IMG/VR virus record: IMGVR_UViG_3300027969_000202
Coordinates: 1 to 39,456 of that record
Direction: 5' to 3' (one strand)
DNA length: 39,456 nucleotides
DNA from: a virus
Shown here: piece by piece, positions 950 to 34,325 of the stretch
Layout: every line of letters begins with the position of its first letter
Numbering within the stretch: the first letter of the stretch is position 1
Translations under genes and position numbers: made by a program
The notes under the pieces: generated by a model
The model's input: only the letters and a program-made list of their open reading frames with translations
Told to the model about the DNA's origin: nothing
Databases searched by the model: none

Positions 950-977
950 TTTTTAACTTACACTAAAGGAAATTGAT

Positions 978-1490
978 ATGCCACGTGCACTAAATGAGTT
1001 TGAAAAACGTGATCGTCTTCTAGAGAAAATGGCAGATAAACAAGCAGCAGCCGCTGCTCCCAAACCTGCTGAAGATGGTACAACTCGAAAACGTAGGAAT
1101 GTCTTTAATGGGACAGAAGCTAAAATAAGTGTTCGAACACAGATAGAAGGTTATCACCTCCATGTCTTTACAGATACTGGAGGACGAATTCAAGAGGCTA
1201 TGGATAGTGGCTACGAATTTGTAAAACCTGATGAAGTGGGAGGCGTGAGTGAGAATGTAATCAGCCGTAATGGTGATCTTGGAGAAAGAATTAGATATCT
1301 TGTAAATCCTCGTGCAGAAGGCACGGAGCAATATGGATATTTAATGAAGATTCGGCAAGAATGGTATGAGGAAGATCAAGCTGAACTTCAGGCTAAAAAC
1401 AATCGCATTGATGCTTCTATCCGCAAAGGGAAGATTACTGGAGATGATCCATCTTTCTATACCCCAAGTGGTGGAATCAAACTTAACTAA
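978..1490 (+). CDS. Conserved phage head-module protein, function unknown
   Basis: A 170-aa soluble protein starting behind AAAGGAAA, between the scaffold-like gene and the decoration-like gene. It has a basic stretch (RKRRN, about residues 37-41), a mixed alpha/beta middle with GYHLHVFTDTGGR, and a C-terminus ending in PSGGIKLN. Proteins of this kind sit beside the capsid gene in many environmental phages, so a virion or assembly role is likely. I cannot name a biochemical function. Base composition matches the neighbouring module A genes. Confidence 0.6.
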   Translation: MPRALNEFEKRDRLLEKMADKQAAAAAPKPAEDGTTRKRRNVFNGTEAKISVRTQIEGYHLHVFTDTGGRIQEAMDSGYEFVKPDEVGGVSENVISRNGDLGERIRYLVNPRAEGTEQYGYLMKIRQEWYEEDQAELQAKNNRIDASIRKGKITGDDPSFYTPSGGIKLN

Positions 1491-1510
1491 TGTTTTATAA
1501 GGAGTCTTAA

Positions 1511-2176
1511 ATGGCTAACGTAAACAAACCCAACGGATTTAGTCCTGTTGGTAACTTGCTAGGTGGCAAGTGGAATGAGCAGGGTCGTGTATACGCTATC
1601 CCTACCTCTGACACTACCAATAGCTATGCAATCGGTGATTGTGTAATGTCTGCTGCTGGTTCGGATGTTAATGGCATTCGTTATATCCAGAAGTGGGGCG
1701 GTGCAACAACTACCTCTGCTTTGCCTTTGGGTATTATTGTCGGTGTTCGTGTTGCTGATTCTAGCGTAAGCTTGGTTGGTACTACTTTGGACCTGACACA
1801 AACTTACATTCCCGCAGGTACTCGTACCACTGTGCGTTATGTATATGTCGTGGATGATCCATTTGTTTTGTTTGAAGCTCAGTTTAACGCTACGGGTGCA
1901 ACCCAAGCTCAACTGTCTTTGAACGCTGCTGTGACCATCTCTGCTGCAAATCAAACATCTTTGTCTACAAGTTCACCGTTCTCTGATATGGTCCTTTCAG
2001 GTCCTGCAGTTACGGCTACTTTGCCAATTCGTTTGCTTGGTGCTGTTCAACGTGTTGACAATGAAGTTACTAGTGCTGCTAGTCCTTATGTCCGTGTGTT
2101 GTGCAAGTTTAACTACCACGAGTACGGTACTATCGCCTCTGCCTCTGGCTCAGTCGTTAACTACCTTGCAGTTTAA
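1511..2176 (+). CDS. Putative capsid decoration / head structural protein (module A)
   Basis: A 221-aa protein rich in Ser, Thr, Ala and Val, predicted mostly beta, with almost no charged helices. Its start behind AAGGAG is clear and it lies 17 bases before the capsid gene. The opening residues MANVNKPNGFSPVGNLLGG and the GIIVGV segment are, from memory, typical of a widespread phage protein found just before HK97-fold capsid genes. Such proteins are usually decoration or head-stabilising proteins. The role is inferred from composition and position; no catalytic residues are visible. Confidence 0.6.
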   Translation: MANVNKPNGFSPVGNLLGGKWNEQGRVYAIPTSDTTNSYAIGDCVMSAAGSDVNGIRYIQKWGGATTTSALPLGIIVGVRVADSSVSLVGTTLDLTQTYIPAGTRTTVRYVYVVDDPFVLFEAQFNATGATQAQLSLNAAVTISAANQTSLSTSSPFSDMVLSGPAVTATLPIRLLGAVQRVDNEVTSAASPYVRVLCKFNYHEYGTIASASGSVVNYLAV

Positions 2177-2193
2177 TTAAGGAGAAATAAATC

Positions 2194-3114
2194 ATGGCTG
2201 GTGTAATTACTACCGCATCCCACCCCAAGGCTCTATGGCCTGGTGTTAAAGCTTGGTGGGGACAAGTCTACAATGAGCATCCAGAAGAGTATGTTGACCT
2301 GTTCGACAAAGATACTTCTACTCAGAACTACGAAGAAGACGTTCAACTGTCTGGTTTCGGTTTGGTTCCTGTGAAGTCTGAAGGTCAAGGAACTGCATAC
2401 GACTCTGAAATTCAAGGCTTTACCACACGTTATACACACGTTGCTTACGCAATGGGTTACATCGTGACTAAAGAAGAGTTGGATGACAACTTGTATGAGC
2501 AAATCTCTAAGAAACGTGCTGCTGCTTTGGCTATGTCTTTCCGTCAAACGAAAGAAAACATTGCTGCTAACGTGTACAACCGTGCTTTCAACAGTACGTA
2601 TAAAGGTGGTGATGGTGTCGCTTTGTGCGCTACTAACCACCCTAATACTGCTGGTGGTACATGGTCTAACAAGCCTACAGTTGATGTTGACTTGTCAGAA
2701 GCTGCTTTGGAAGATGCAGTGATTGCAATCATGGGTCTGCGTAATGACCGTGATTTGTTGGTTGCTATTCAACCTAACAGCCTGCACATTGCTCGTCAAG
2801 AAGTGTTCAATGCTCAGCGTATTCTTCACTCTCAGTACCAAACAGGTAACGCCAACAATGACATCAACGTCATTGCAACTGGTAACTACTTGCCTGGTGG
2901 CTTTAAAGTGAACCACTACTTCACAAGCCCTCACGCTTGGTTTATCCGTAACACCATCCCTGGTGGTACTGGTATGAAGTACTACGAGCGTCATGCTGTC
3001 ACGTTCGATCAGGACAATGACTTTGATACTATGAACGTTAAAGCTAAAGGCTACGAGCGTTATAGTTTCGGTTGGTCTGATCCCCGTGCCATCTTTGGCT
3101 CTAATGGTCCATAA
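2194..3114 (+). CDS. Major capsid protein, HK97-fold type (module A)
   Basis: A 306-aa protein starting behind AAGGAG. It has the usual layout of a compact HK97-fold capsid protein: an N-terminal arm, a mid-protein helix rich in charged residues (about 85-125), then a beta-rich part with TNHP and a C-terminal YERYSFGWSDPRAIFGS. This matches, from memory, capsid proteins of many environmental tailed phages. It is the last gene of the scaffold-decoration-capsid run and a strong hairpin terminator follows 17 bases after its stop, typical of a highly expressed coat gene. It is not related to the P22-type coat at 9835, so the window holds two capsid genes. Confidence 0.8.
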   Translation: MAGVITTASHPKALWPGVKAWWGQVYNEHPEEYVDLFDKDTSTQNYEEDVQLSGFGLVPVKSEGQGTAYDSEIQGFTTRYTHVAYAMGYIVTKEELDDNLYEQISKKRAAALAMSFRQTKENIAANVYNRAFNSTYKGGDGVALCATNHPNTAGGTWSNKPTVDVDLSEAALEDAVIAIMGLRNDRDLLVAIQPNSLHIARQEVFNAQRILHSQYQTGNANNDINVIATGNYLPGGFKVNHYFTSPHAWFIRNTIPGGTGMKYYERHAVTFDQDNDFDTMNVKAKGYERYSFGWSDPRAIFGSNGP

Positions 3115-3130
3115 TTGTTATTAGTAACAA

Positions 3131-3161
3131 GCCCCCTCTCAAAAGGAGGGGGTTCTTTTTT
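3131..3161 (+). terminator. Intrinsic terminator after module A capsid gene
   Basis: A GC-rich hairpin (CCCCCTC pairing with GAGGGGG, loop TCAAAAG) at 3132-3152 is followed directly by TTCTTTTTT. It lies just downstream of the capsid stop codon and should end or attenuate transcription there. Confidence 0.85.
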
Positions 3162-3178
3162 AACTAAAGGAATTTAAA

Positions 3179-3313
3179 ATGAGCTACGAACGTGAAAAAG
3201 AAAAGGGCAAGCGTCCTGATGTTACAGTCCAAGCTAAAATGATGGCAGCTAAGAAAATGGCTCCTACTAAAAAAGCGGCTGCAAAAAAGACTATGCCTAA
3301 AAAGAAAATGTAA
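3179..3313 (+). CDS. Small lysine-rich basic protein (44 aa)
   Basis: A 44-aa reading frame begins with ATG behind AAAGGAA and ends with TAA. About a third of the residues are lysine, with an Ala/Lys/Met-Pro tail (KKAAAKKTMPKKKM) like a histone tail. It sits between two hairpin terminators, so it is a separately punctuated unit after the capsid gene. Similar short basic proteins occur beside phage head genes and may bind DNA or capsid. The function is unproven. Small basic proteins also occur in module B at 34588 and 34740, without clear sequence identity. Confidence 0.6.
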   Translation: MSYEREKEKGKRPDVTVQAKMMAAKKMAPTKKAAAKKTMPKKKM

Positions 3314-3335
3314 AGTACAATTCAATCTTCCAATG

Positions 3336-3361
3336 ACGCTTCAGAAATGGAGCGTTGTTTT
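3336..3361 (+). terminator. Hairpin terminator candidate
   Basis: ACGCTTC (3336-3342) pairs with GGAGCGT (3349-3355), one G-T wobble, across the loop AGAAAT. TGTTTT follows. It is weaker than the terminator at 3131 and lies between the small basic protein and the gene at 3385. Confidence 0.5.
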
Positions 3362-3384
3362 AAACAACGTCAAAGGAACTTATC

Positions 3385-4098
3385 ATGTCAAACCCAACCC
3401 GATTTCTTAGTGGTGTAGCCACTGTCCCCGCAAGCCAACCTCTTGGCAACTTCCCTTTTCCTGATCCATTTCACACTAGTGGCACAACTGGTTTAGATGT
3501 TTTTACCTACGAAAATGATTACACTGATTTAGGTGCTGCTGCTTCCCGCACTATTACTGGTACTAGCAGCACATTTACTCTTGTAGATGGTGTAGGTGGC
3601 ATCGGTCGTTTAACTCCAGGTGGTGCTACTACTGCTTCTAGTATGTATCGCACTGCTGCTGCTTTTCAATTTGTAGCTGGTCAAAAGTTTTGGTATACCA
3701 CACGCATTGCTTATAGCGGTGTTGGTGCTGGTATTACTAGTTACTTTGGTGTAATTAAAACTGCTGGTGCTACTACAGATAGCTTGTTGTTTAAACTTGC
3801 TGCTACTGGTGTATTGAGTTTTGTATCTACAGTTAACAACACAGCAACAACATTAGTAGCTTCTGTTACTACTATGACTGCTGCTACTTATGCTGAAGTT
3901 GCATTTTGTTATGATGGCACTGATCTGCTTGTGTACTTTGCACACAACTTAATTGCTCGTATTTCTAATGTGACCATTGGTTCTACTGGTACAACATTAA
4001 CAAATGCTGCCCTTACTGAGATTGTTCAGATTACTCCTGCTGCTACAGAAACAGCTTCTGTTGATTTTGTATTGGTTGCTCAAGAAGTTGTACGCTAA
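3385..4098 (+). CDS. Putative beta-sandwich head or tail structural protein
   Basis: A 237-aa protein, very rich in Thr, Ala, Gly and Ser with few charges, starting behind AAAGGAA. The pattern of short alternating hydrophobic strands and the segment YAEVAFCYDGTDLLVYFAHN are what one expects of a concanavalin-like jelly-roll used on phage surfaces. It stands alone between two hairpins, downstream of the capsid gene, so a surface or decoration role is plausible. I do not recognise a named family. Confidence 0.5.
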   Translation: MSNPTRFLSGVATVPASQPLGNFPFPDPFHTSGTTGLDVFTYENDYTDLGAAASRTITGTSSTFTLVDGVGGIGRLTPGGATTASSMYRTAAAFQFVAGQKFWYTTRIAYSGVGAGITSYFGVIKTAGATTDSLLFKLAATGVLSFVSTVNNTATTLVASVTTMTAATYAEVAFCYDGTDLLVYFAHNLIARISNVTIGSTGTTLTNAALTEIVQITPAATETASVDFVLVAQEVVR

Positions 4099-4113
4099 TA
4101 GATTAAAGTAAAC

Positions 4114-4150
4114 ACCACATCTGTCACAACAGTGATGGGTGTGGTTTCTT
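4114..4150 (+). terminator. Long hairpin with short T-run
   Basis: A 14-bp stem (4114-4127 with 4132-4145, three G-T wobbles) closes a loop AACA and is followed by TTCTT. It follows the stop of the gene at 3385 and probably acts as a terminator or attenuator. Confidence 0.55.
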
Positions 4151-4196
4151 ACTAAGAATAATTTAGTGTTAAACATAAACAAAGTGGGAGTCTAAT

Positions 4197-4559
4197 ATGG
4201 CTGATATGTTTCTTAAGAGTGGCGAGCAACCTCGTTATTTTGCTTTTAGTGGTGTAAATGCTACAACTACTAATCAAGCATCTTCACCAATCTATAAAGA
4301 AAGTCCATACAGTAGCTTCCAAGCTATTGTCACTGGCACAGGTGCTGTAACTGCAACTGTTGCTTTACAAGTGTCTAATGAAGCTGCTACCTTTAATGGT
4401 ACTAAGTCTAATTGGATTACTATGGGTACTATCACTTTGTCTGGTACTACTACAGCTACCGATGGATTTACAACTGTGTGTCCTTGGCGTTATGTTCGTG
4501 CTAACGTGACTAACGTTACTGGCACTGGTGCTACCGCTGAAATCATTATGGGTGTGTAA
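4197..4559 (+). CDS. Small beta-rich structural protein, unknown
   Basis: A 120-aa protein behind GGGAG, Thr/Ala/Gly-rich and predicted all-beta, with the C-terminal segment WRYVRANVTNVTGTGA. The composition is typical of phage head-tail or fibre-associated proteins. It is the first gene of the short run 4197-4562-4760 that leads into the tailspike. Its place matches that of the 102-aa protein at 38096 in the other tailspike module, but the sequences do not look homologous. Confidence 0.5.
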   Translation: MADMFLKSGEQPRYFAFSGVNATTTNQASSPIYKESPYSSFQAIVTGTGAVTATVALQVSNEAATFNGTKSNWITMGTITLSGTTTATDGFTTVCPWRYVRANVTNVTGTGATAEIIMGV

Positions 4560-4561
4560 TC

Positions 4562-4747
4562 ATGGCTGTTGCTACTACAAACCTTTATGGGGCTTTTGAT
4601 AATCCTGGTGATTTTGGGATTACAGAATATGGAGTAGCTACCGATAAGTACGGGGTCATCCAAGACCCCATTACTTCTACAGGCAAATTGTTACTAGAAA
4701 CAGGTGACGCATTGCTGCAAGAAGATAGCAGCTACATCTTGTTGTAA
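4562..4747 (+). CDS. Small protein with C-terminal LLxE-GD-LxQED-ILL motif
   Basis: A 61-aa protein starting two bases after the previous stop, so probably translationally coupled. Its C-terminus, LLLETGDALLQEDSSYILL, matches the C-terminus of the 54-aa protein at 38401 (LLCENGDNLVQEDGGQILLE) at L, L, E, G, D, L, Q, E, D, I, L and L. In both places the gene lies directly before a tailspike gene. The motif looks like a docking or assembly tag for the tail apparatus. Function unknown. Confidence 0.55.
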   Translation: MAVATTNLYGAFDNPGDFGITEYGVATDKYGVIQDPITSTGKLLLETGDALLQEDSSYILL

Positions 4748-4759
4748 TTTAGGATACCT

Positions 4760-6355
4760 ATGACTTCAACTGTATTTACAACTGGAACTGTTATTGAGTC
4801 TCCTTGGCTCAATGATGTTAATGGTGCTACATACAACGGCACAGCCGTATACACACCTGCTGGTACTGGAGCTATTGCCACTACCATGCAAGCTAAGTTG
4901 CGTCAATCTGTTAGCGTCATGGACTTTGGTGCAGTATGTAATGGTATTGTGGATGACACTGCGGCAGTTCAAGCTGCTGTCAACTACTGCTTAACAGACC
5001 CACTTAGACCTATTTCTTTGATAGTGCCAGGACAATGTAAGCTAACAGCATCAATTAACATTGACCAAACAGTAAGTGTCACAACTCTAAAATTAGGTGA
5101 CTTTAGAATTATTGGTCAAGGCAAAATGCCTGGCTTTTACACCACAACCCCAATTGTGATGTTCTCAGCAACAGCCAATCACACAGTTCAGTCTGTATCT
5201 TCAAACATTTCGTTTGAAGGCATTGTGTTTGATAACAATGATCGCACAGTTGCCGCATTTGTAACTGATGGCGCTTACATTCAAGTTAAGTTTCAGAACT
5301 GCCGATTCAATCGAATTAAGTGTATGAACACAACTGGAATTAATACGTTTTCGTATTCATTCTTGGCTTGTGAGATGCGTAACTGGGATGGTAATTTTTT
5401 TAGCTTAAGTTATACCAGTGCTAATGACATTACTTTTTCAAACTGCTACTTTAATGGTGGCTACAACTGCGTTGTCTTAGGTATTGTTCAAACTTTTAAT
5501 TTTATTGACAATACTGCTGAATCTCTACAAGGTAGACCTATTAGCACCAATGGTGGTCGTGATATTTTAATTACAGGCAATTATTTTGAAGCTAATAGAA
5601 CAGCGTTAGGTCAAGCATACGAAGTAGAACTTGCGTCAGGAGCATTTGCTCTTTATGGTTGTGTTGTTCAAGCAAACTTGTTTTATTTAAGTGCAGGACA
5701 AGTTACTGATGCTAATGATTATGCTGTTAATTATGGTACACCAGTAAGTGCTACTTCTATTGGGAATTGGTCTTCTGGAAAACTTAGCCGAACAGTAACC
5801 CCCGTTTTGGGCTCGTTTATGTCGTTTGGTGACGCAGATAACAAAACCAACGCAGCAGCCGATTCCATATCAGTTTTGACAGACTTTCAAGGCGCGTCTC
5901 TTGCACTTGGCACAAAAGGCTATTACCAACAAATCAACAACTACAACGTGCAAACTGTTGCAGTTACCAAAGCATTTGGGTCTGATTTGTTTAACGCAGC
6001 CGCTACAACTGACAACGCTGTGCTATTTACTCAACCAGCGCAGTCTTTGTTGCTGAACGTAACAATGGTTAATGATTTGTTGTTTGTTGCACCAAGCATG
6101 ACTAATTTAGGAGTTACTGTTGGTGATGGTTCTAACGCCGCAGGCATTTTTACAGAAACCATGAATTTGACTTCTAATGCCCTTAACACCAAGTACAAAA
6201 ATCGTGGAGTTTACTGGAATGGCGGTGCTGTTGGGACTGAATATTACACAACCACTGCAAAGGCTTGGTCAGGCTATGCCACGGCAACTGGAGCAAATTT
6301 AAACACTTTGACAGCGGGTCAAGTGACTTTCTACTTTACATATCGTTCTCTATAA
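4760..6355 (+). CDS. Pectate-lyase-like beta-helix tailspike (short N-terminus version)
   Basis: A 531-aa protein. Residues 1-50 form a short adaptor (WLNDVN segment, as in many podophage tail fibres). From residue 49 the sequence QSVSVMDFGAVCNGIVDDTAAVQ is the classic opening of the pectate lyase 3 / right-handed beta-helix superfamily, whose members bind and often cut host surface polysaccharide. A repetitive Asn-rich helix body follows, then a beta C-terminal domain. From base 4904 the gene is nearly identical to the partial tailspike at the right edge, and from 5033 to 5159 fully identical. The first 48 codons may therefore belong to a different phage from the rest. Confidence 0.8.
   Translation: MTSTVFTTGTVIESPWLNDVNGATYNGTAVYTPAGTGAIATTMQAKLRQSVSVMDFGAVCNGIVDDTAAVQAAVNYCLTDPLRPISLIVPGQCKLTASINIDQTVSVTTLKLGDFRIIGQGKMPGFYTTTPIVMFSATANHTVQSVSSNISFEGIVFDNNDRTVAAFVTDGAYIQVKFQNCRFNRIKCMNTTGINTFSYSFLACEMRNWDGNFFSLSYTSANDITFSNCYFNGGYNCVVLGIVQTFNFIDNTAESLQGRPISTNGGRDILITGNYFEANRTALGQAYEVELASGAFALYGCVVQANLFYLSAGQVTDANDYAVNYGTPVSATSIGNWSSGKLSRTVTPVLGSFMSFGDADNKTNAAADSISVLTDFQGASLALGTKGYYQQINNYNVQTVAVTKAFGSDLFNAAATTDNAVLFTQPAQSLLLNVTMVNDLLFVAPSMTNLGVTVGDGSNAAGIFTETMNLTSNALNTKYKNRGVYWNGGAVGTEYYTTTAKAWSGYATATGANLNTLTAGQVTFYFTYRSL
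4904..5159 (+). repeat. Internal copy of the contig-end repeat (256 nt)
   Basis: Aligned with 39201-39456 there are three mismatches, at 4924, 4975 and 5032. The last 127 positions (5033-5159) are identical. The repeat begins at the start of the beta-helix domain of both tailspike genes and is in frame in both. Confidence 0.97.
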
Positions 6356-6368
6356 CTGGAGCAAATAA

Positions 6369-7271
6369 ATGGCTGACTTAAAAATTTCCGCACTAACGGC
6401 ATCTACCACTCCCCTTGCGGGAACGGAAGTTTTGCCAATTGTGCAAAGCGGTACAACTAAACAAGTTTCTGTAGCTAATTTAACTGCTGGTCGAGCCGTA
6501 TCTGCTTCAACTCTTGGCGTTGGCGTTACCACTCCTGTCAGCATAGTTGAAGCAAGTTCAACAACCCCTGTTATCACTGCTTCACAAAGCAGCACATCGG
6601 TTGCAATTGACACTTTGGTTGGGGCGTTTAATGCTTACTCTTATGATGCGTCATTAAACAGCAAAGGTGGCGTAGGTGGCGTTCGAGTTTATTCGGAAGC
6701 AACATGGAATACAGGCGGCACACCATCGTATCTTGCGTTTTATACGCACCCAGGCTCGGCAAATAATGATACTTTGCTTGGTGCTGTGGTTGAAGCTGGT
6801 AGATTTGACTCAACTGGCAATTTAAAAGTTGCTATTGGTAATGTAGTCATCGGCACATCTGGCAAAGGCATCGACTTTTCTGCCACATCAGGCACAGGCA
6901 CAAGCGAGTTGTTGGCTGACTATGAAGAAGGTACTTGGACACCATCCGACACATCGGGTGCTGGATTGACTTTGACAATCACTGGCACATCAACATATAC
7001 AAAAATTGGCCGACAAGTAATTGCTACTGCTGACATTACTTATCCAGTTACTGTCAATGCAAGTTTGACACTTATTGGTGGTTTGCCTTTTACCACAGCC
7101 GCAGCACCAAGCGGTGCTGGTTCAATTGGTTATACCGATTACGGCACTTGGATTACCGCATCGCCTAGCGGCTCGGCCACAGCATTTAGATTTATTGGTG
7201 CAACTACTTTTTTGACAAACGCCCAATTGTCTGGAAAACGTGTTCAAGTCACCATTATCTACATAGTTTAA
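6369..7271 (+). CDS. Tail fibre-like protein
   Basis: A 300-aa protein behind GGAGC. The opening MADLKISALTAST-PLAGTE, with PIVQSG-TKQVSVANLTAG after it, is a conserved N-terminal module of phage fibre proteins as I remember them. Residues about 175-190 carry GIDFSATSGTGTSELLADYEEGTWTP, a common fibre segment that precedes a small beta receptor-tip domain. It has no enzyme motif. It sits between two beta-helix spike genes, so it probably contributes to the same adsorption apparatus. Confidence 0.7.
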   Translation: MADLKISALTASTTPLAGTEVLPIVQSGTTKQVSVANLTAGRAVSASTLGVGVTTPVSIVEASSTTPVITASQSSTSVAIDTLVGAFNAYSYDASLNSKGGVGGVRVYSEATWNTGGTPSYLAFYTHPGSANNDTLLGAVVEAGRFDSTGNLKVAIGNVVIGTSGKGIDFSATSGTGTSELLADYEEGTWTPSDTSGAGLTLTITGTSTYTKIGRQVIATADITYPVTVNASLTLIGGLPFTTAAAPSGAGSIGYTDYGTWITASPSGSATAFRFIGATTFLTNAQLSGKRVQVTIIYIV

Positions 7272-7280
7272 GGACTAATC

Positions 7281-8651
7281 ATGGCGCTTACAAAAGCCTC
7301 CTATGCAATGATTACTGGTGCTGTAGCCAATATTTTGGACTATGGCGCAGTAGGTGATGGCGTAGCTAACGACACTGTCGCTATTCAAGCCGCTATTACA
7401 GCAATTGCCGCAAAGACAACAAAAGGCGCTGTGTATATCCCTTCTGGGAATTACAAGATTACAGCGGTTTTGACAGTACCTTATGGCGTGTCAATATTTG
7501 GAGATGGCGCAACAGCATCAAATTTGCAATGCGAAAACTGCGATGGTTTGCAATTCACATCGTTTGGATATCAGATCGGAAGTATGTTCTACGAGGATTT
7601 TGGTTTAACCGCCAATTCTGGAACAAATCGTGTTGGCGTGTTGGCGCTAGATGACGCATCAACACAAGATGGTTTATATCTAAACCGACTGCGTTTTTAT
7701 GGATGGAATCAGTGCATTGTGTTGAGTTCAGATTGGAACTGCACAATCTCAGACTGTGTTGGTCAAAATATTAACCAAGCGGTCAATCTTGCTCAGGGTG
7801 ATGGGCAAGCACTTGGTATCAGAATTATTAACAACCGATTTACCTACTCTTCTGGCGGTTTAGGAACGGCAGATAAATACGCAATTGTGCTATCTGCAAC
7901 AACCGAATTTGTTGAAAGCGTCCATATTCTTACAAACCAAATTTTTGGCTTTGTCAAGAACGTAATTATTGTTAAAGGTTACTTTGTCAACATTGTAGGA
8001 AATGACTTTAGTGGCACTGGAAACGTCATTGAGTTTGATACGCCTACTGGAGGCTACACCATTCAAAACAATTTTATTGAAGTTGTTGGGGCATCTGGGT
8101 GTGGGATTTTAATTCCTTCTGTCAGCATTCAAGACGACACATACAGAACGGAAATCCAAAACAACAATATTCAAGGCACAGGCAGCGCGTCTGCTTACGG
8201 CATCAACATTGGAACTGGCACTGGCAATTTTCAATGGAATATTCTTGTAGATAACAACACGGTAAGTGGTTTTGCTACGGCAGACATTAACATTCGTGCT
8301 GGTGGTTACACAACCATTTCTAACAATCGTTGCATATCTTCTGCTGCTACACAAAGTATGTATTTGGACACAATTACTGGTGGCAGTGTGTCTGTTGAAA
8401 ATAATCGTTGTTTAAAACCAATTACGATTGCTACGATTGCTGATTACACAGGCGGCAAGATACTTTTGTCGGGCAACATTGAAAACAATTTATTTCAAGC
8501 AACAAAACAATCTGCTGTGCCTACAACTGGCACATGGCGTGTGACTGATGTGGTAATGAATTCTGCGCCTGCTGCGGGTTCACCTGCTGGATGGGTTTGC
8601 ACTGTGGCTGGAACGCCTGGTACTTGGAAAGCAATGGCTAATTTGGTTTAA
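7281..8651 (+). CDS. Second pectate-lyase-like beta-helix tailspike
   Basis: A 456-aa protein starting 9 bases after the previous stop. Residues about 18-45 (ILDYGAVGDGVANDTVAIQAAI) mark the pectate lyase 3 superfamily start. A parallel beta-helix body with many Asn ladders (NNRF, ENNR, NNNI) follows. The C-terminal GTWRVTDVVMNSAPAAGSPA and GWVCT-AGTPGTWKA form a small domain shared by many phage spikes. It lacks a separate head-binding domain, so it probably attaches through another spike or fibre protein. The substrate is unknown. Confidence 0.8.
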   Translation: MALTKASYAMITGAVANILDYGAVGDGVANDTVAIQAAITAIAAKTTKGAVYIPSGNYKITAVLTVPYGVSIFGDGATASNLQCENCDGLQFTSFGYQIGSMFYEDFGLTANSGTNRVGVLALDDASTQDGLYLNRLRFYGWNQCIVLSSDWNCTISDCVGQNINQAVNLAQGDGQALGIRIINNRFTYSSGGLGTADKYAIVLSATTEFVESVHILTNQIFGFVKNVIIVKGYFVNIVGNDFSGTGNVIEFDTPTGGYTIQNNFIEVVGASGCGILIPSVSIQDDTYRTEIQNNNIQGTGSASAYGINIGTGTGNFQWNILVDNNTVSGFATADINIRAGGYTTISNNRCISSAATQSMYLDTITGGSVSVENNRCLKPITIATIADYTGGKILLSGNIENNLFQATKQSAVPTTGTWRVTDVVMNSAPAAGSPAGWVCTVAGTPGTWKAMANLV

Positions 8652-8657
8652 ACCGTA

Positions 8658-8704
8658 CTGGTGCGGCCCACCAGCCTTAATGCCTGACTGGATGGTCAGG
8701 CTGG
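8658..8704 (+). other. Two adjacent hairpins between tailspike and next gene
   Basis: CTGGTG/CACCAG (8658-8663 with 8669-8674) and GCCTGAC/GTCAGGC (8682-8688 with 8695-8701) are perfect stems. CCAGCC (8671-8676) can instead pair with GGCTGG (8699-8704), which would break both. No T-run follows, so this is not a simple terminator. It may protect mRNA ends, act as a processing site or be a two-state RNA. Confidence 0.5.
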
Positions 8705-8719
8705 AAACAAGGAAATGAT

Positions 8720-8980
8720 ATGTTGGAAAAAGTTATCTCTGTCGATTTAATTGAAGTTGTTGAAAACGGCTGCATTCAAGTTCGCACCAAGACTGCTATC
8801 AAAGAAGATGGCGTTGAAATCAGTAGCAAGTTTCACCGCCATGTGGTTGCCCCTGGCGCTGACGTAAGCGCTGAAGATGCCAAAGTGCAAGCAATTGCCG
8901 CATCTATCCACACTCCTGAAGTGATTGCTGCATACGAAGCTGCCAATCCAGTTGTACAAATGCCCGAAATTCCAGCATAA
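8720..8980 (+). CDS. Small conserved phage protein, unknown
   Basis: An 86-aa acidic protein starting behind AAGGAA. The first half looks beta (VISVDLIEVVENGCIQVRTKT), the second half is helical and Ala-rich (AEDAKVQAIAASIHTPEVIAAYEAA). It sits between the spike genes and the scaffold. Similar short proteins occur near fibre genes in other phages. No motif gives a function. Confidence 0.6.
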   Translation: MLEKVISVDLIEVVENGCIQVRTKTAIKEDGVEISSKFHRHVVAPGADVSAEDAKVQAIAASIHTPEVIAAYEAANPVVQMPEIPA

Positions 8981-9015
8981 TATGCTGACAAACCGTATCG
9001 GCGAGGTTCACCGAG

Positions 9016-9029
9016 GAATCCAAGGATTC
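9016..9029 (+). promoter_or_regulatory. Palindrome overlapping the scaffold ribosome binding site
   Basis: GAATCCAAGGATTC is a perfect inverted repeat, able to form a 5-bp stem with loop CAAG. The best Shine-Dalgarno match for the scaffold start at 9037 (AAGGA, 9022-9026) lies within it. Folding could reduce scaffold translation. The effect is inferred. Confidence 0.4.
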
Positions 9030-9036
9030 AGAAAAC

Positions 9037-9813
9037 ATGACTGAAGAAGTCCAAGCCCTAGCGGAAGTAGACTCCGCGCCAACCACGGATGTGACGGCCA
9101 CACCTGAAGTTGCTGAAAGTACGCCGGAAGTAGCTGAAACACAGCCTGCCAAGACATTCTCGCAAGAGGAACTTGACGCTGCTATTGGCAAACGCCTCGC
9201 AAGAGAGCAACGTAAGTGGGAAAGAGAACAGCAACAACGATCTGCCGAAACGCAAATCGTGAAAGCAGCTCCGTCAGCATCCGTTGACCAGTTTGAAAGC
9301 CCTGAAGCCTATGCGGAAGCATTGGCATATCAGAAAGCTGAAGAACTATTGGCCAAACGTGAAGCGGCAAAGCAGCAGTCGCAAGTTCTTGAGAGTTATC
9401 ACGACTTGGAAGAAGAAGCTAGGACTAAGTATGACGACTTTGAACAAGTCGCCTACAACCCTAAACTTCCGATCACAAACGTGATGGCAGAAACGATTCA
9501 GTCTTCGGACGTTGGGCCTGAGTTAGCGTACTATCTCGGCTCTAATCCAAAAGAAGCAGATCGCATCTCACGCATGTCGCCATTGAGCCAGGCGAAGGAA
9601 ATTGGGAAAATTGAAGCCAAATTGGTTTCAGCGCCCCCAGTTAGAAAAACGACATCTGCGCCAGCGCCGATTTCACCTGTCACCGCACGCTCCGCTGGAG
9701 TGTCGGCTTACGATACAACTGATCCTCGGTCTACCAAGTCCATGAGTGCATCAGAATGGATTGAGGCCGAGCGCAAACGACAAGTGAAAAAGTGGGAAGC
9801 ACAGAACCGCTAA
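9037..9813 (+). CDS. Scaffolding protein (P22 gp8 role)
   Basis: A 258-aa, strongly charged, mostly helical protein directly upstream of the P22-type coat gene. It contains FSQEELDAAIGKRLAREQRKWE (about residues 41-62), a common scaffold motif, a Lys/Glu-rich coiled coil through about residue 125, and a basic C-terminal helix (ASEWIEAERKRQVKKWEAQNR) like the helix-turn-helix by which P22 scaffold binds coat. P22 gp8 is somewhat longer (303 aa). It builds the procapsid and then leaves. Together with the next gene this forms the standard scaffold-coat pair. Confidence 0.8.
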   Translation: MTEEVQALAEVDSAPTTDVTATPEVAESTPEVAETQPAKTFSQEELDAAIGKRLAREQRKWEREQQQRSAETQIVKAAPSASVDQFESPEAYAEALAYQKAEELLAKREAAKQQSQVLESYHDLEEEARTKYDDFEQVAYNPKLPITNVMAETIQSSDVGPELAYYLGSNPKEADRISRMSPLSQAKEIGKIEAKLVSAPPVRKTTSAPAPISPVTARSAGVSAYDTTDPRSTKSMSASEWIEAERKRQVKKWEAQNR

Positions 9814-9834
9814 TTTTTTTAAAGGACTTTTAAA

Positions 9835-11046
9835 ATGTCAAACAGTATTCTGACGATCGACATGATCACAAGAAAATCACTCGAAATCCTCGAGAACAAC
9901 CTTGTGATCACCCGTAACGTGAACCGCCAGTATGACGACAGCTTCGCTGTTGAAGGTGCTAAGATCGGTTCAACCCTCCGTATCCGTTTACCTGACCGCG
10001 CTTTGGTAACTGACGGCGCCGCCCTGCAAGTTCAGGACGACAACGAGCAGTTCACCACTTTGACCGTTGCCAGCCAAAAGCACATCGGTGTCAACTTCAC
10101 ATCTGCTGAATTGACCATGCAATTGGATGACTTCGCTGAGCGTGTGTTAAAGCCTCGTATCAGCCAGTTGGCATCTTCTATTGATGCAGACGTGGCCAAT
10201 GCGTACAAAACCATCGGTAACACCGTTGGTACACCTGGCACAACTCCTTCTACTTCTTTGGTCTTGTTGCAAGCCCAGCAGAAGCTGAATGAGAACGCAG
10301 CCGTGATGTCCCCACGTTACGCTACCGTGAACCCTGCTGCTAACGCTGGCTTGGTTGAAGGCATGAAAGGTCTGTTCAATCCTACAGACACTATCAGCAA
10401 GCAATTCAAGAACGGCATGATGGGCACTGGCGTGTTGGGCTTTGACGAGATCAACATGTCTCAGTCTATCAAGCAGCACACCACTGGCTCACGCAGTGCA
10501 ACAGCTTCTACATTGGTTAAGACCCCCGGCGTTACTGCCGAAGGTGCAACTTCCATTTTGTTAGAGCAAGGCTCTGTGTCCACAACCATCAAAGCTGGTG
10601 ACGTGTTTACTATCAGCGGTTGCAATGCTGTCAACCCACAAACCCGTGAATCCACTGGTTCGTTGTTCCAGTTCGTAGCTTTGGCTGATGCAACCGCTTC
10701 ATCCGGCACTTGGACTGTGACTGTGGCTCCTATGTACTCCGCTGCAAACGCACTGGCTACTGTGGATGTGTTGCCTGCAACTGGCGGTGTCGTAACCTTT
10801 GTTGGCGCTGCTTCTACTCAGTACGCACAGAACTTGGTCTACCATAAGGACGCCATAACGTTCGCAACGGCTGATCTCTTGCTGCCAATGGGGGTCGATA
10901 TGGCTGCTCGCGCAGTCCACAACGGTATTTCCTTGCGTATCGTACGTCAGTACGATATTAACAATGACCGTATGCCTTGCCGTATTGACGTTTTGTACGG
11001 TTTCAGCACAATTCGTCCACAAATGGCCTGCCGTATCTGGGGCTAA
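9835..11046 (+). CDS. Major coat protein, P22 gp5-like
   Basis: A 403-aa protein behind AAAGGA, close in length to P22 coat (430 aa). It opens with a helical arm (LTIDMITRKSLEILENNLVI), then R-x-YDDSF and the GSTLRIRLP segment typical of P22-like coats. A beta insertion rich in Gly, Thr and Ser at about residues 225-325 lies where the P22 telokin-like domain is. The C-terminal part holds MAARAVHNGISLRIVRQYDINNDRMPCR-DVLYG, the best conserved block of the family. It forms the icosahedral head. The next gene is separated by a strong terminator, as expected for the most abundant protein. Confidence 0.92.
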   Translation: MSNSILTIDMITRKSLEILENNLVITRNVNRQYDDSFAVEGAKIGSTLRIRLPDRALVTDGAALQVQDDNEQFTTLTVASQKHIGVNFTSAELTMQLDDFAERVLKPRISQLASSIDADVANAYKTIGNTVGTPGTTPSTSLVLLQAQQKLNENAAVMSPRYATVNPAANAGLVEGMKGLFNPTDTISKQFKNGMMGTGVLGFDEINMSQSIKQHTTGSRSATASTLVKTPGVTAEGATSILLEQGSVSTTIKAGDVFTISGCNAVNPQTRESTGSLFQFVALADATASSGTWTVTVAPMYSAANALATVDVLPATGGVVTFVGAASTQYAQNLVYHKDAITFATADLLLPMGVDMAARAVHNGISLRIVRQYDINNDRMPCRIDVLYGFSTIRPQMACRIWG

Positions 11047-29006: not shown

Positions 29007-29017
29007 CTTTGCGTCCT

Positions 29018-29236
29018 ATGAACACACAAATACCCCCAGACGAGCGCCGACAACTGGCAGAAAAAGTTGGCATAAACGAGCAATATCTCTACCAGTGCCT
29101 TACGGGCCGGCGTGAGATGTCAGCATGGGAGGCTGTTCGAGTAGAGCAGCAGACCGAAGGCAGGGTCACTCGGCAGATGGTGTGCCAGGGCAGTTGGCAG
29201 TCTATTTGGCCAGAACTTGTGGAGGCCAAAGCATGA
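29018..29236 (+). CDS. Cro/YdaS-like HTH transcriptional regulator
   Basis: A 72-aa protein; ATG at 29018. The helix-turn-helix is RRQLAEKVGINEQYLYQCLTGRREMS (about residues 10-35). The following WEAVRVEQQTEGRVTRQMVC is the typical YdaS/Cro tail (x-x-I-E-x-x-T-G-G-x-V-T-R). It probably binds the three TCWAGC-N5-GCTAGA operators just upstream, repressing the leftward operon and its own gene. No divergent CI-like repressor is present. Its stop overlaps the start of the primase-helicase gene (ATGA). Confidence 0.82.
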   Translation: MNTQIPPDERRQLAEKVGINEQYLYQCLTGRREMSAWEAVRVEQQTEGRVTRQMVCQGSWQSIWPELVEAKA

Positions 29237-31323
29237 GCAGCCTAACGTCTATTTTCCCCAATGGCTTCGCAGCAGCCACCGAGTCGCAAGACCTGATCAA
29301 CCCTGAAGAATCGTTTCGCAGGCACTGCGAGGCGGCTGGTCTGCTGATCAAAGACCAGATCGTGGCAGATGGTGAGATCCACAGGGTGGCTCATGTGTCG
29401 TCCAAGAAGGGTGCGCTTGACGGGTGGTACATCTTGCACACCAGTGGCAAAGTTCCTGTGGGCATTGCCGGCTGTTGGAAGGAGCCAGTGTTTGAGAGCA
29501 AATGGATTGCAGATACTGGCCGTGCCATGTCGTTCACTGAGCGCTTCGAGCATGACAAGTGGGTGGCAGAGGTCAAAGCCAAGAAAGATGCAGACAGACT
29601 AGCATCTCAGGCGGTAGCTGCAGAGCGTGCAGAGGATGAAGTGGGAACATATGCGGATGCGTCAAATGATCACCCCTACTTAGTTCGCAAGCATGTTAGC
29701 GCCAACGGGATCAAGATTGATCGCGCAGGCAGACTGGTTGTGCCGGTGATCAATCAGGCGGGTGAGATTCTGTCGTACCAGACCATTGATGCAGATGGCA
29801 ACAAGCGGTTCTTGAAGGGTGGCAAGATCGAAGGCGGGTTCTATGAGTTGCGCGGTAACCGCAAGATCGTGTTCATTGGTGAGGGCTTTGCCACCTGCGC
29901 ATCGATCCATGAGGCGACTGGCTACACCGTGTTGGTGGCGTTTGATTGTGGCAATCTGGCCAAGGTGGCCAAGAGCGCCAAGGAGATGTTTCCAGGCTCC
30001 AAGATTGTGATCGGCGCAGACAATGACCAGTTCACGGAAGGCAACCCTGGCGTCACTAAGGGCCGTGCAGCTGCGGCACTAGTGTTTGGTGAGATTGTTT
30101 ACCCATCGTTTTCTGATTCGGACATGGTGGACAACAAGCCTACAGACTTTAACGACTTGCATTGCTTGCAGGGCTTGGATGCCGTCAAAGAGCAGATTGA
30201 GCGCGTGGCAGGGCCAATGAAGGACAAACTGGCGTTTGAGTTCAGCAGGGCTGACAGCCTGCAACTCACGCAAATCAAGTGGATCGTGGATGACTACATC
30301 GAGGCAGACTCACTGGCGCAAGTGTTTGGTGACCCAGGCGGTGGTAAGTCCTTCGTGTCCATCGACATTGCCTGCTGCGTAGCCACTGGCAAAGCATGGC
30401 ATGGCCATGAGGTTAAGCAAGGCAGTGTGTTCTACATCGCCGGCGAAGGTCATAACGGCTTGGCTAGGCGGTTCAAGGCATGGCAGTTGGGCAATGGGCA
30501 AACCTTGGACGGAGCGCCTCTGTACAAGAGCCACCGTGCGGCGCAGCTGTATGACGCGACTGAGGCTGCCGTTGTTGCAGAGGCCATTAAAGAGTTGTCA
30601 CAGCAGGCAGGCACTGTGCCAAGCATGATCATCATTGACACCTTGGCGCGTAACCATGGTGGGGATGAGAACAGCACTCAGGACATGAATGCGTTCATTC
30701 AGCACCTTGACACCTACTTGCGCCAACCATGGAACTGCTGCGTTCTAGTGGTGCATCACTCTGGCGTGGCTGACAAGGATCGCAGTCGGGGATCGACAGC
30801 CCTGAAAGGCGCACTGGATGCAGAGTACCGCTGCCAGTTGGACAGTGGAACCAAAACCATAGCGTTTGAGTCTAAGAAAATGAAGGACGCAGAGATGCCT
30901 GCACCAAAGAACTTTCAGATCACGCAAGTAGACTTGCCAATCCAAGACAAGCACGGTTTGGCGGTCAAGGGTGCATACCTTACAGCTGTGGACATTAGCG
31001 GCCTGACCAGTTCAATCCAGAAGAAAACATATCTTGCGGGCAACCAACGCAAGACCTTAGACTGCCTTGTGGCCATCCAAATGAGCCATGAAAAGAACGG
31101 CATTTTGGACTTGGTAACCTACGATGAGTGGCGCGAGTCGGCCAAAGAACATGGCATTAAATCCAACCGATTTAGGGAAGTTGTTGATAGCTTAGTCAAA
31201 AAGTTGTTGGTTTTGGAGGACTCCAGAGGTTACAGAACCAGACCGAATATAGATGTGACGAACGAACCGAAACTTACCGAATCGGTAACCGAATCGGTTA
31301 ATTCGGTTGAACCGAAACTATGA
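29233..31323 (+). CDS. Primase-helicase (Toprim plus RecA-fold helicase)
   Basis: A 696-aa protein; the ATG at 29233 overlaps the regulator stop. The N-terminal third has a conserved W-ILHTSGKVPVG-GCWKE region. The Toprim domain shows IGEGFATCASIHEATG with Glu about 217 and GADND at about 261. The RecA-fold helicase has Walker A GDPGGGKSF at about 366-374, Walker B MIIIDTLARN with Asp about 469, and VVHHSGVADKDRSRGSTALKGA. It should prime and unwind DNA at the fork. The last 20 residues (NEPKLTESVTESVNSVEPKL) are encoded by the repeat array that continues downstream. Confidence 0.88.
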   Translation: MSSLTSIFPNGFAAATESQDLINPEESFRRHCEAAGLLIKDQIVADGEIHRVAHVSSKKGALDGWYILHTSGKVPVGIAGCWKEPVFESKWIADTGRAMSFTERFEHDKWVAEVKAKKDADRLASQAVAAERAEDEVGTYADASNDHPYLVRKHVSANGIKIDRAGRLVVPVINQAGEILSYQTIDADGNKRFLKGGKIEGGFYELRGNRKIVFIGEGFATCASIHEATGYTVLVAFDCGNLAKVAKSAKEMFPGSKIVIGADNDQFTEGNPGVTKGRAAAALVFGEIVYPSFSDSDMVDNKPTDFNDLHCLQGLDAVKEQIERVAGPMKDKLAFEFSRADSLQLTQIKWIVDDYIEADSLAQVFGDPGGGKSFVSIDIACCVATGKAWHGHEVKQGSVFYIAGEGHNGLARRFKAWQLGNGQTLDGAPLYKSHRAAQLYDATEAAVVAEAIKELSQQAGTVPSMIIIDTLARNHGGDENSTQDMNAFIQHLDTYLRQPWNCCVLVVHHSGVADKDRSRGSTALKGALDAEYRCQLDSGTKTIAFESKKMKDAEMPAPKNFQITQVDLPIQDKHGLAVKGAYLTAVDISGLTSSIQKKTYLAGNQRKTLDCLVAIQMSHEKNGILDLVTYDEWRESAKEHGIKSNRFREVVDSLVKKLLVLEDSRGYRTRPNIDVTNEPKLTESVTESVNSVEPKL

Positions 31324-31843: not shown

Positions 31844-31932
31844 TGGCGTGCGCAGTTGCCATTGCCGCACCTTCAGGGAAAGCGCCAGTTGGCGTGAGTA
31901 CCTTCTTTTTTAAGGAGTTTACAAGTGACTGA
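31840..31932 (+). CDS. Possible 30-aa leader peptide
   Basis: ATG at 31840 overlaps the RusA stop, and the frame (MMACAVAIAAPSGKAPVGVS...) ends at 31932, just past the GTG start of the small terminase. It spans the ribosome site of the next gene, so it could couple RusA and terminase translation. No family known; it may be noise. Confidence 0.3.
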   Translation: MMACAVAIAAPSGKAPVGVSTFFFKEFTSD

Positions 31933-32437
31933 AAACTTGGCGTCAGAAATGACAGTGCAGAAACATCCTGGTGGCCGTCCAGTTGTTTATGGGATGGATA
32001 ACCCATGCTGGCAAATCTTGTGCGAACAAATCTCGGAAGGTAAAAGTCTAAGCACGGCGATTAAGGCAGAAGGAATGCCATCGTATCAATTGGTGATGCT
32101 TACGCTCAGAAACAGCCCTGAGTTCAGAACCATGTACGAAAAGGCCGTAGAAAGCCGCGCAGACCGATTGGCAGAGGAAATCATTGAACTGGCTGACCAA
32201 GAGATGCCAGACGGTTTAGAAGGCCCTATGGCGTCTGCATGGGTGCAACAAAAAAGAATGCAAGTCGATGCACGCAAGTGGGTTGCAAGTAAGTTGAAGC
32301 CTAAGACTTATGGTGATCGCATAGACGTTGCCGTGACCGATAACCGAATCAGCGTTATGGATGCACTCAAAGAAGCAAAGCAGCGTGTGTTACGCGATGA
32401 TAGTAATGTCGTGGATGCAGAGGTTAAAGAGGCGTGA
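31925..32437 (+). CDS. terS: Terminase small subunit
   Basis: A 170-aa protein starting with GTG, supported by AAGGAG eight bases upstream. It has a helix-turn-helix-like N-terminal part (QILCEQISEGKSLSTAIKAEGMPSYQLVMLTLRNSPEF), then YEKAVESRADRLAEEIIELAD and MQVDARKWVASKLKPKTYGDR, typical of phage small terminases. It recognises the packaging site and directs the large subunit. It lies 361 bases before the large terminase. Confidence 0.88.
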   Translation: MTENLASEMTVQKHPGGRPVVYGMDNPCWQILCEQISEGKSLSTAIKAEGMPSYQLVMLTLRNSPEFRTMYEKAVESRADRLAEEIIELADQEMPDGLEGPMASAWVQQKRMQVDARKWVASKLKPKTYGDRIDVAVTDNRISVMDALKEAKQRVLRDDSNVVDAEVKEA

Positions 32438-32508: not shown

Positions 32509-32581
32509 GAAAAGAAAGCCAGACAACAAGAAAAGCATCGTCCACTTTATACAATGACCATTATGTTAAGTTGACCCTAAG

Positions 32582-32670
32582 TTATCCACAGAAAAAATAC
32601 TACTCAGGCATTACAGTTTGAGTTATCCACAGGCAAATGTGGACAACTGTGGAAAACACCCTGTGGACAA
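32582..32670. promoter_or_regulatory. Cluster of five DnaA boxes, candidate origin
   Basis: Two perfect TTATCCACA boxes on the + strand (32582-32590, 32623-32631) and three on the - strand: TGTGGACAA (32638-32646), TGTGGAAAA (32648-32656), TGTGGACAA (32662-32670). Five in 89 bases is far above chance. A GC-rich stretch (about 32671-32750) and an AT-rich tract follow. The arrangement looks like a bacterial or plasmid oriC core. Confidence 0.8.
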
Positions 32671-32798
32671 GCGCCCACGGCCTGCCCAGCCGGCCAAGGG
32701 GGAGGGGGTAGGGCCGGCGCGAAAGGGCCGCAGGAACGGTAGCCCCGCGAACATTTTTTATTTTTATTTTTTAAAAAAATCATTTACCATCACCCCTA
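32671..32798. other. Rest of the terS-terL non-coding region: GC-rich block then A/T tract
   Basis: GC-rich from about 32671 to 32750 (GGCC, GGGGGAGGGGG, GGGCCGG), then 32752-32780 is nearly all T and A (ATTTTTTATTTTTATTTTTT then A-run), ending in a leader with no Shine-Dalgarno site before the large terminase start. The A/T tract could be the duplex-unwinding element of the DnaA-box region. I see no convincing gene in 32438-32798. Confidence 0.5.
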
Positions 32799-34325
32799 AT
32801 GCAAACCACGATCTATAAGCCCGAAGACGAACAAGAGCTGATGGCCACTCTGTGGACACCGGCGATTGCCGATGACCCCGAGGCGTTTGTGTTGTTTGCT
32901 TTCCCTTGGGGCCAAGAGAACACACCCCTTCAAAACTTCAAGGGGCCGCGCAAGTGGCAACGCGAAGTCCTGCGGGAGATAGCCCAGCACATCAAAGACA
33001 ACCAGGGCAAGATAGATTTCAACACTCTGCGCAGTGCAGTCAGTTCTGGCCGCGGTATTGGCAAGTCTGCGCTAGTGAGCTGGCTTACCATCTGGATGTT
33101 ATCCACGCGCATAGGCTCAACAACGATCATTTCGGCCAACAGCGAAGCCCAGCTGCGTGCGGTGACTTGGGCTGAGATCACAAAGTGGTTGGCCATGAGC
33201 ATTAACAGCCACTGGTTTGAGGTGGCAGCCACCAAGATCACGCCTGCGGCATGGCTGACTGAACTGGTTGAAAAAGACCTTAAAAAAGGCACACGGTATT
33301 GGGCTGTTGAAGGCCGCCTATGGTCAGCAGAGAATCCTGACGCTTACGCTGGTGTCCACAACTTTGATGGTGTGATGGTGATTTTTGACGAGGCCAGCGG
33401 TATTGACGACAGCATCTGGGCTGTGACGGCTGGATTTTTTACCGAGAACACACCGAACCGCCTTTGGTTGGCTTTTTCCAACCCACGGCGCAACACTGGC
33501 TACTTTTATGAGTGCTTTAACTCTAAGCGCGACTTTTGGAGTAACAAGGTGGTGGACGCACGCACGGTGGAAGGCACAGACAAACAAGTCTATCAAAACA
33601 TCATTGACGAATACGGCCCCGACAGCTCACAAGCCCATGTTGAGGTCTATGGCATGTTCCCATCTGAGGGTGATGACCAGTTTATTCCGGCTGACATTGT
33701 GGATGAGGCCATGGCACGGCCCAAGTACAAGGATCAAACGGCGCCCATCATCATTGGAGTTGACCCTGCACGCTTTGGTGCTGACGCCACGGTGATTGCT
33801 ATTAGGCAAGGGCGCGACATTGTGAGGATTGACAGGCATCGAGGTGATGACACCATGACTGTGGTTGGCCATATTATTGAGGCCATGGAGGAATTCAAGC
33901 CTGCCATGGTGGTGATTGATGAAGGTGGGCTTGGGGCTGGCATTGTTGACCGTTTGAAGGAGCAAAGGTACAAAATCAAAGGTGTCAACTTTGGCAATAA
34001 ATCGGCAAATCCGATCATGTATGGCAATAAAAGGGCCGAAATGTGGGGAAAAATGAAGGATTGGCTCAGAACGGCAAGCATTCCCAAAGATAGGTTCTTG
34101 AAAACTGATTTGGTATCGCCTATGATCAAGCCAGACTCTAGGGGCACTATATTTTTGGAGAGCAAGAAGGACATGAAAGCCCGAGGTTTGGCCAGTCCTG
34201 ACGCAGCAGACGCAATTTGTGTTACTTTTGCGTTTCCTGTGGCTCATAGGGAATATACTGCGAGGGAAACAAGCCGCAAGTACACTGACAGGACGGCGGT
34301 TGCAACTTCATGGATGGGCAGTTAA
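32799..34325 (+). CDS. terL: Terminase large subunit
   Basis: A 508-aa protein close to P22 gp2 (499 aa). The ATPase has Walker A SSGRGIGKSA (about residues 83-92) and Walker B VMVIFDEASG. The C-terminal RNase H-like nuclease has GVDPARFGADATV, VVIDEGGLGAG and SPDAADAICVTFAF, containing the catalytic acidic residues. It pumps DNA into the procapsid through the portal and cuts concatemers. No ribosome site precedes the ATG, only ACCATCACCCCTA. Confidence 0.93.
   Translation: MQTTIYKPEDEQELMATLWTPAIADDPEAFVLFAFPWGQENTPLQNFKGPRKWQREVLREIAQHIKDNQGKIDFNTLRSAVSSGRGIGKSALVSWLTIWMLSTRIGSTTIISANSEAQLRAVTWAEITKWLAMSINSHWFEVAATKITPAAWLTELVEKDLKKGTRYWAVEGRLWSAENPDAYAGVHNFDGVMVIFDEASGIDDSIWAVTAGFFTENTPNRLWLAFSNPRRNTGYFYECFNSKRDFWSNKVVDARTVEGTDKQVYQNIIDEYGPDSSQAHVEVYGMFPSEGDDQFIPADIVDEAMARPKYKDQTAPIIIGVDPARFGADATVIAIRQGRDIVRIDRHRGDDTMTVVGHIIEAMEEFKPAMVVIDEGGLGAGIVDRLKEQRYKIKGVNFGNKSANPIMYGNKRAEMWGKMKDWLRTASIPKDRFLKTDLVSPMIKPDSRGTIFLESKKDMKARGLASPDAADAICVTFAFPVAHREYTARETSRKYTDRTAVATSWMGS

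Follow-up and report, generated by a model that had tools for sequence, protein, structure and literature searches.

A dif-like Xer site at fixed spacing from a DnaA-box array between the terminase genes of an uncultured tailed phage: a possible recombination site run by host proteins

The phage DNA studied here (an IMG/VR virus record of 39,456 nucleotides, hereafter the window) carries two modules between the genes for the small and large terminase subunits (Table 1). Module A joins a site that resembles chromosomal dif, the target of XerC and XerD, to a cluster of DnaA boxes; module B follows it. Further upstream lies the gene for a primase-helicase, which is syntenic in this position relative to module A in many relatives. 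No replication initiator was recognised in the window. No DNA polymerase was found among its large ORFs, in agreement with an earlier sequence-only reading of the same DNA. A YdaS/Cro-like HTH ORF (29009-29236, below the Pfam cut-off) overlaps the called start of the primase-helicase gene, and in one relative (L011) cytosine-methylase-like ORFs are inserted at that primase-start region.

Table 1. Features between the primase-helicase gene and terL, in window coordinates
Feature	Position	Strand	Remark
Toprim/AAA primase-helicase	29125-31323	+	true start probably near 29230
Terminase small subunit (Sf6 TerS-like; terS)	31925-32437	+
Module A (Xer core and DnaA boxes)	32544-32670	+	cassette, either orientation in relatives
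dif-like XerC/XerD core site, 28 bp	32544-32571	+	ACTTTATACAA-TGACCA-TTATGTTAAGT
XerC arm	32544-32554		ACTTTATACAA
Centre	32555-32560		TGACCA
XerD arm	32561-32571		TTATGTTAAGT
DnaA box 1	32582-32590	+	TTATCCACA; starts after 10 bp from XerD arm
DnaA box 2	32623-32631	+	TTATCCACA; 41 bp after box 1
DnaA box 3	32638-32646	-	TTGTCCACA
DnaA box 4	32648-32656	-	TTTTCCACA; weakly conserved at most
DnaA box 5	32662-32670	-	TTGTCCACA; 39 bp after box 2 here, 38-39 bp in relatives
Module B (conserved GC-rich block, then T-rich tract before terL)	about 32697-32790	+	profile matches in relatives
Terminase large subunit (terL)	32799-34325	+

The cluster of DnaA boxes is not a product of chance. The sequence-only reading had counted five boxes in 89 bases, two of them perfect, and its positions are exact: five sites with at most one mismatch to TTATNCACA within 89 bp were reached in none of 400 dinucleotide shuffles, one of which contained four, and this rules out chance clustering. 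Because the number of boxes in the window as a whole is not raised (31 observed vs 42 expected), what sets the locus apart is clustering and not abundance. The sequence TTATCCACA has just two copies in the whole window, which are boxes 1 and 2. Conservation in relatives, which that reading had named as a point on which its proposal could fail, was examined as well, and the boxes are kept: they come after the terS stop in about 80 relatives with an orthologous TerS, a position that holds even where cargo of 1.3-2.5 kb has been inserted before terL, and independent contigs confirm the locus, as in L005, in which TerS and TerL are identical and the same box module is found. The way in which the boxes vary points to the same conclusion. 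In 77 sequences aligned in one orientation, Fitch counts of changes per site, which are approximate because the tree was made from those same sequences, were 0,0,1,2,16,3,0,0,0 for box 2 and 1,1,1,4,7,1,0,0,0 for box 1, while box 5 changed only at positions 5, 3, 1 and 2, and the spacers had a mean of 8.6 changes per site. The place that varies freely in boxes 1, 2 and 5 is mainly position 5, the N of TTATNCACA, which is DnaA's own tolerance. Conservation, substitution pattern and shuffles together support the view that these are DnaA boxes under selection for the recognition sequence of that protein.

The best-conserved stretch of the locus is not a box. It is CATTATGTTAAGT, ahead of box 1, which together with TACAA upstream of it makes up the 28-bp Xer site. 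The sequence-only reading was right about the boxes but missed the dif-like XerCD site, which stands a constant 10 bp away from box 1 and changes how the element is to be read. Scored with a matrix made from 32 published dif sites, Rhodoferax being left out, the Xer site is the top scorer of the window (19.8, the next separate site reaching 12.4). This score alone is no proof, for when the window was shuffled in blocks 100 times the top scores averaged 10.5 and went as high as 22.0; the identification therefore rests on the host and on the relatives. TerL relatives (81%) occur in contigs from MAGs of Rhodoferax and of Burkholderiales, contigs which may be misbinned and which make a Burkholderiales family the probable host. 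Rhodoferax ferrireducens dif, ACTTGATACGA-TGTATA-TTATGTTAAGT, has an XerD arm identical to that of the phage, and dif-like sites of the probable host family include ACTTTATACGA-TGTATA-TTATGTTAAGT, with which the phage arms share 21 of 22 bases, and ACTTCATACGA-TGTATA-TTATGTAAAGT. The arms are conserved in 85 relatives, where the XerD arm is TTATGTTAAGT in 78 and TTATGTAAAGT in six, both of them versions that also occur in host dif. When 89 loci were picked solely by the XerD arm plus box 1, the matrix for the XerC arm of host dif gave +11.8 at the predicted offset, whereas the remaining offsets listed scored between about -8 and -17. An 11-bp XerC arm, a 6-bp centre (as psi also has) and an 11-bp XerD arm, all laid out to match host dif, argue for a site that XerCD would recognise. 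A promoter had also been considered for the conserved block before box 1 and was dropped, the arms matching host dif and the cassette occurring inverted as well.

The spacing within module A is rigid. In the 85 relatives, 10 bp lie between the XerD arm and box 1 in 84; box 2 follows box 1 at 41 bp in 80 or 40 bp in four, and box 5 follows box 2 at 39 bp in 57 or 38 bp in 25. In the same set the Xer site lies anywhere between 121 and 238 bp away from the terS stop. Across IMG/VR, at least 120 viral stretches have the exact gap between XerD arm and box 1; shortening the gap by one base finds seven (including the contig of L033, with a one-base deletion) and lengthening it by one base finds two. 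It is chiefly because the exact spacing prevails over gaps that differ by one base that we regard the Xer core and the boxes as parts of one complex. This 10/41/39-bp geometry is that of an accessory region held at fixed spacing from a core, as in cer and psi.

The composite is carried by many uncultured phages, including ones with unrelated terminases and replication genes, and in several lineages it sits at the junction of replication and packaging genes. The place between terS and terL, which had been called unexpected, is one instance of this. It occupies this place both in the family of the window and in phages with a TerL about 31% identical, and in L331, whose TerL has no clear similarity to that of the window, it lies upstream of terS. 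The replication genes of the carriers are of several kinds, namely Toprim-helicase, primase-helicases of other types and O-like/NinB; three relatives with NinB/DUF1376-type replication genes (L242, L243 and L248) are without it. On a TerS tree, 15 of the 82 rows have the cassette inverted, and supported branches force at least seven changes of orientation, a count that could be inflated if lineages have exchanged terS or the module; occurrence in both orientations speaks against a promoter. Searches of plasmids and cultured phages returned no copies beyond chance, although short diverged ones could escape blastn. A box pair in one relative without the module (G008, 9325/9339) lies inside a structural gene and was set aside as chance.

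Our preferred explanation, to which we give a probability of roughly one half, is that module A is a circularisation and multimer-resolution site run by the host, with DnaA as a phased partner and possibly with origin activity in addition. The sequence shows both kinds of site, the one agreeing with host dif and the other with the DnaA rule, as well as spacing that hardly varies, conservation across many relatives and changes of orientation; from this we infer binding, recombination, joint action and a biological role. The dif-like XerCD core would have the DnaA-box array beside its XerD arm and in constant helical phase with it, and host XerC and XerD would act on the core at phage entry and during replication, so that terminally redundant genomes would be circularised, multimers resolved, or both. 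By binding boxes 1, 2 and 5, DnaA would fold the neighbouring DNA as an architectural or licensing partner, and this partnership would couple the reaction to the replication state of the host. In P1, lox near pac allows terminally redundant DNA to circularise, and recombination near the packaging start might, by analogy, have a similar purpose here, with host enzymes doing the work of Cre. The presence of the module in phages with O-like initiators fits a role in resolution. A more specific form of this explanation makes host DnaA a true Xer accessory factor, phased beside the dif-like core and controlling XerCD strand exchange, so that circularisation or monomerisation would follow the initiation state of the host, and makes the composite a portable element common to a wide range of uncultured tailed phages; we put this forward tentatively, at somewhat less than even odds. 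Several points count against a resolution site. The boxes are on the XerD side, unlike the accessory sequence of cer and psi, which is on the XerC-arm side. A terminal redundancy that extends from the packaging start towards terL would leave out the Xer site in the direct orientation. Finally, fixed spacing could also serve the opening of an origin, the Xer core being 72% A+T.

Xer sites are known from plasmids and from phages that are non-tailed or filamentous, and DnaA boxes are known in plasmid and phage origins. A fixed junction of the two is described in none of the searchable papers, a set outside which most subscription journals lie; the literature searched held no link between DnaA and Xer and, on DnaA boxes in phages, nothing relevant save a prediction by Ori-Finder for a Pseudomonas phage. 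There is a real chance that module A represents a new regulatory principle. It resembles chromosomal dif in its length of 28 bp, its 11-6-11 layout and its conserved XerD arm (Carnoy and Roten 2009, PMC2731167), and differs from it in its centre, in an XerC arm that ends CAA and not CGA, and in being phage-borne and adjoining DnaA boxes in fixed phase. Like psi of pSC101 and cer of ColE1 (reviewed in PMC5357621), it consists of an Xer core with accessory sequence beside it, carried by a replicon outside the chromosome. The partners of those sites are not DnaA but PepA together with ArcA or ArgR. Integrative elements of the IMEX type (CTXphi, VGJphi, TLCphi and GGI) also bear a dif-like site and no integrase of their own; here, by contrast, the carriers are tailed, P22-like phages, no integrated copy was found, and a DnaA array is attached. 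The resemblance to oriC-type origins and to P1, with its oriR and Cre-lox, lies in a DnaA-box cluster within a phage replicon and in a recombination site near the packaging genes. The differences are that Xer core and boxes stand here in a fixed junction, that host XerCD would replace Cre and that no Rep protein or iterons were recognised. Module A, portable and about 130 bp long, would join two central systems of the host, replication initiation by DnaA and dimer resolution by XerCD. Should DnaA control Xer recombination, it would be a new accessory factor, and phages would have a new means of tying circularisation or monomerisation to the replication of the host.

The strongest rival, though we think it less likely, is a DnaA-dependent, plasmid-like origin at which DnaA loads DnaB or a phage helicase and host Pol III copies the DNA, the Xer site being an ordinary dimer-resolution neighbour whose A+T-rich core may act as the unwinding element. 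Several features have the look of an origin: each cluster-bearing genome has a single cluster of this quality, the module lies about 1-2 kb after the primase-helicase in many lineages, the window has no recognised initiator, and the plus/plus/minus orientation of the boxes and their rigid spacing are origin-like. PolA was found in none of 54 composite-bearing records checked (0/15, 0/4 for G032, G033, G035 and G037, and 0/35) and is encoded by ten TerL relatives without module A, counts of absence that are evidence of lower quality because many records are fragments; however, five phages (G003, G008, G025, G026 and W02) have neither PolA nor the module. That the module occurs only in phages lacking an initiator of their own is refuted by L322 and L331, which carry it together with O-like initiators, and what survives is the absence of PolA. 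Nor does cumulative GC skew across the window reach a minimum or turn at the module. The sequence-only reading had seen an oriC-like element, perhaps a second origin, in the boxes and a nearby A/T tract. The tract (about 32755-32790) belongs to module B, is kept in relatives without boxes and stays put when the box module is inverted, so that it was rejected as a component; the sole candidate for an unwinding element to travel with the boxes is the Xer core itself. An invariant 10-bp gap would, moreover, be needless between independent neighbours. A second origin is possible, and is weakened by the separate tract, the skew and the O-like initiators of some carriers. If module A is an origin, these phages would be DnaA-dependent, plasmid-like replicons.

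It is improbable that the Xer site is instead an attP that integrates at chromosomal dif through host XerCD in the manner of VGJphi, with the boxes regulating lysogeny. The arms do match host dif, no integrase was found in 33 phages, a YdaS-like regulator lies upstream of the primase, and centres reading TGTCCA share the XerC side of the host TGTATA and differ from it towards XerD, as in VGJphi. Yet the centre varies among the phages on the XerC side too (TCATCA, CGTCCA, CATTCA) and is not matched to dif, none of the same 33 phages has a CI-type S24 repressor, and the composite was found in none of 399 Burkholderiales-order genomes (one per species). The small number of bacterial contigs that encode a related TerL seem to be free phage that ended up in MAG bins, and integration at dif is unlikely.

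Scarcely probable is a site of DnaA titration or reactivation (datA/DARS-like) or a DnaA-controlled terL promoter, as might be expected of high-affinity boxes on DNA that is amplified in infection. Both would leave the Xer core and its fixed gap unexplained, the orientation relative to terL is not fixed, and better candidates for titration are the loose TTGTCCACA arrays without an Xer core in PolA-encoding relatives. These arrays (TTGTGGACAATGTGGACAA), seen in L192:5051-5560 of G011 and in L053, L059, L073, L067 and L071, are dense and tandem, adjoin module B and have no recognisable Xer core. The least probable reading of all, a packaging site bound by TerS whose likeness to DnaA boxes is coincidental, has in its favour a place between terS and terL and the company of an orthologous TerS in the family of the window, but the spacers have module B and not module A in common, module A also goes with distant and undetectably related TerL and once lies upstream of terS, and its tolerance of base changes obeys the rule of DnaA.

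The better candidate for a packaging site is module B, which is present in nearly all terS-terL or pre-terL spacers, with or without module A, and is found without boxes in L176, L242, L243 and L248. About half of the relatives (L011, L014, L016, L019, L098 and others) have 1.3-2.5 kb of cargo between module B and terL. The boxless L176 has a palindromic, weak dif-like site (1781-1808, minus strand; score 11.7) directly after terS. Far from the locus, the region 113-11046 of the window holds two sets of head genes, one with a coat-like ORF (2194-3114, phrog_371) and one with a P22-type coat gene (9835-11046, phrog_283) beside a scaffold gene (9037-9813), and G+C shifts from 39-45% before about 9 kb to mostly 45-55% beyond; a chimeric assembly or a recent recombination is possible.
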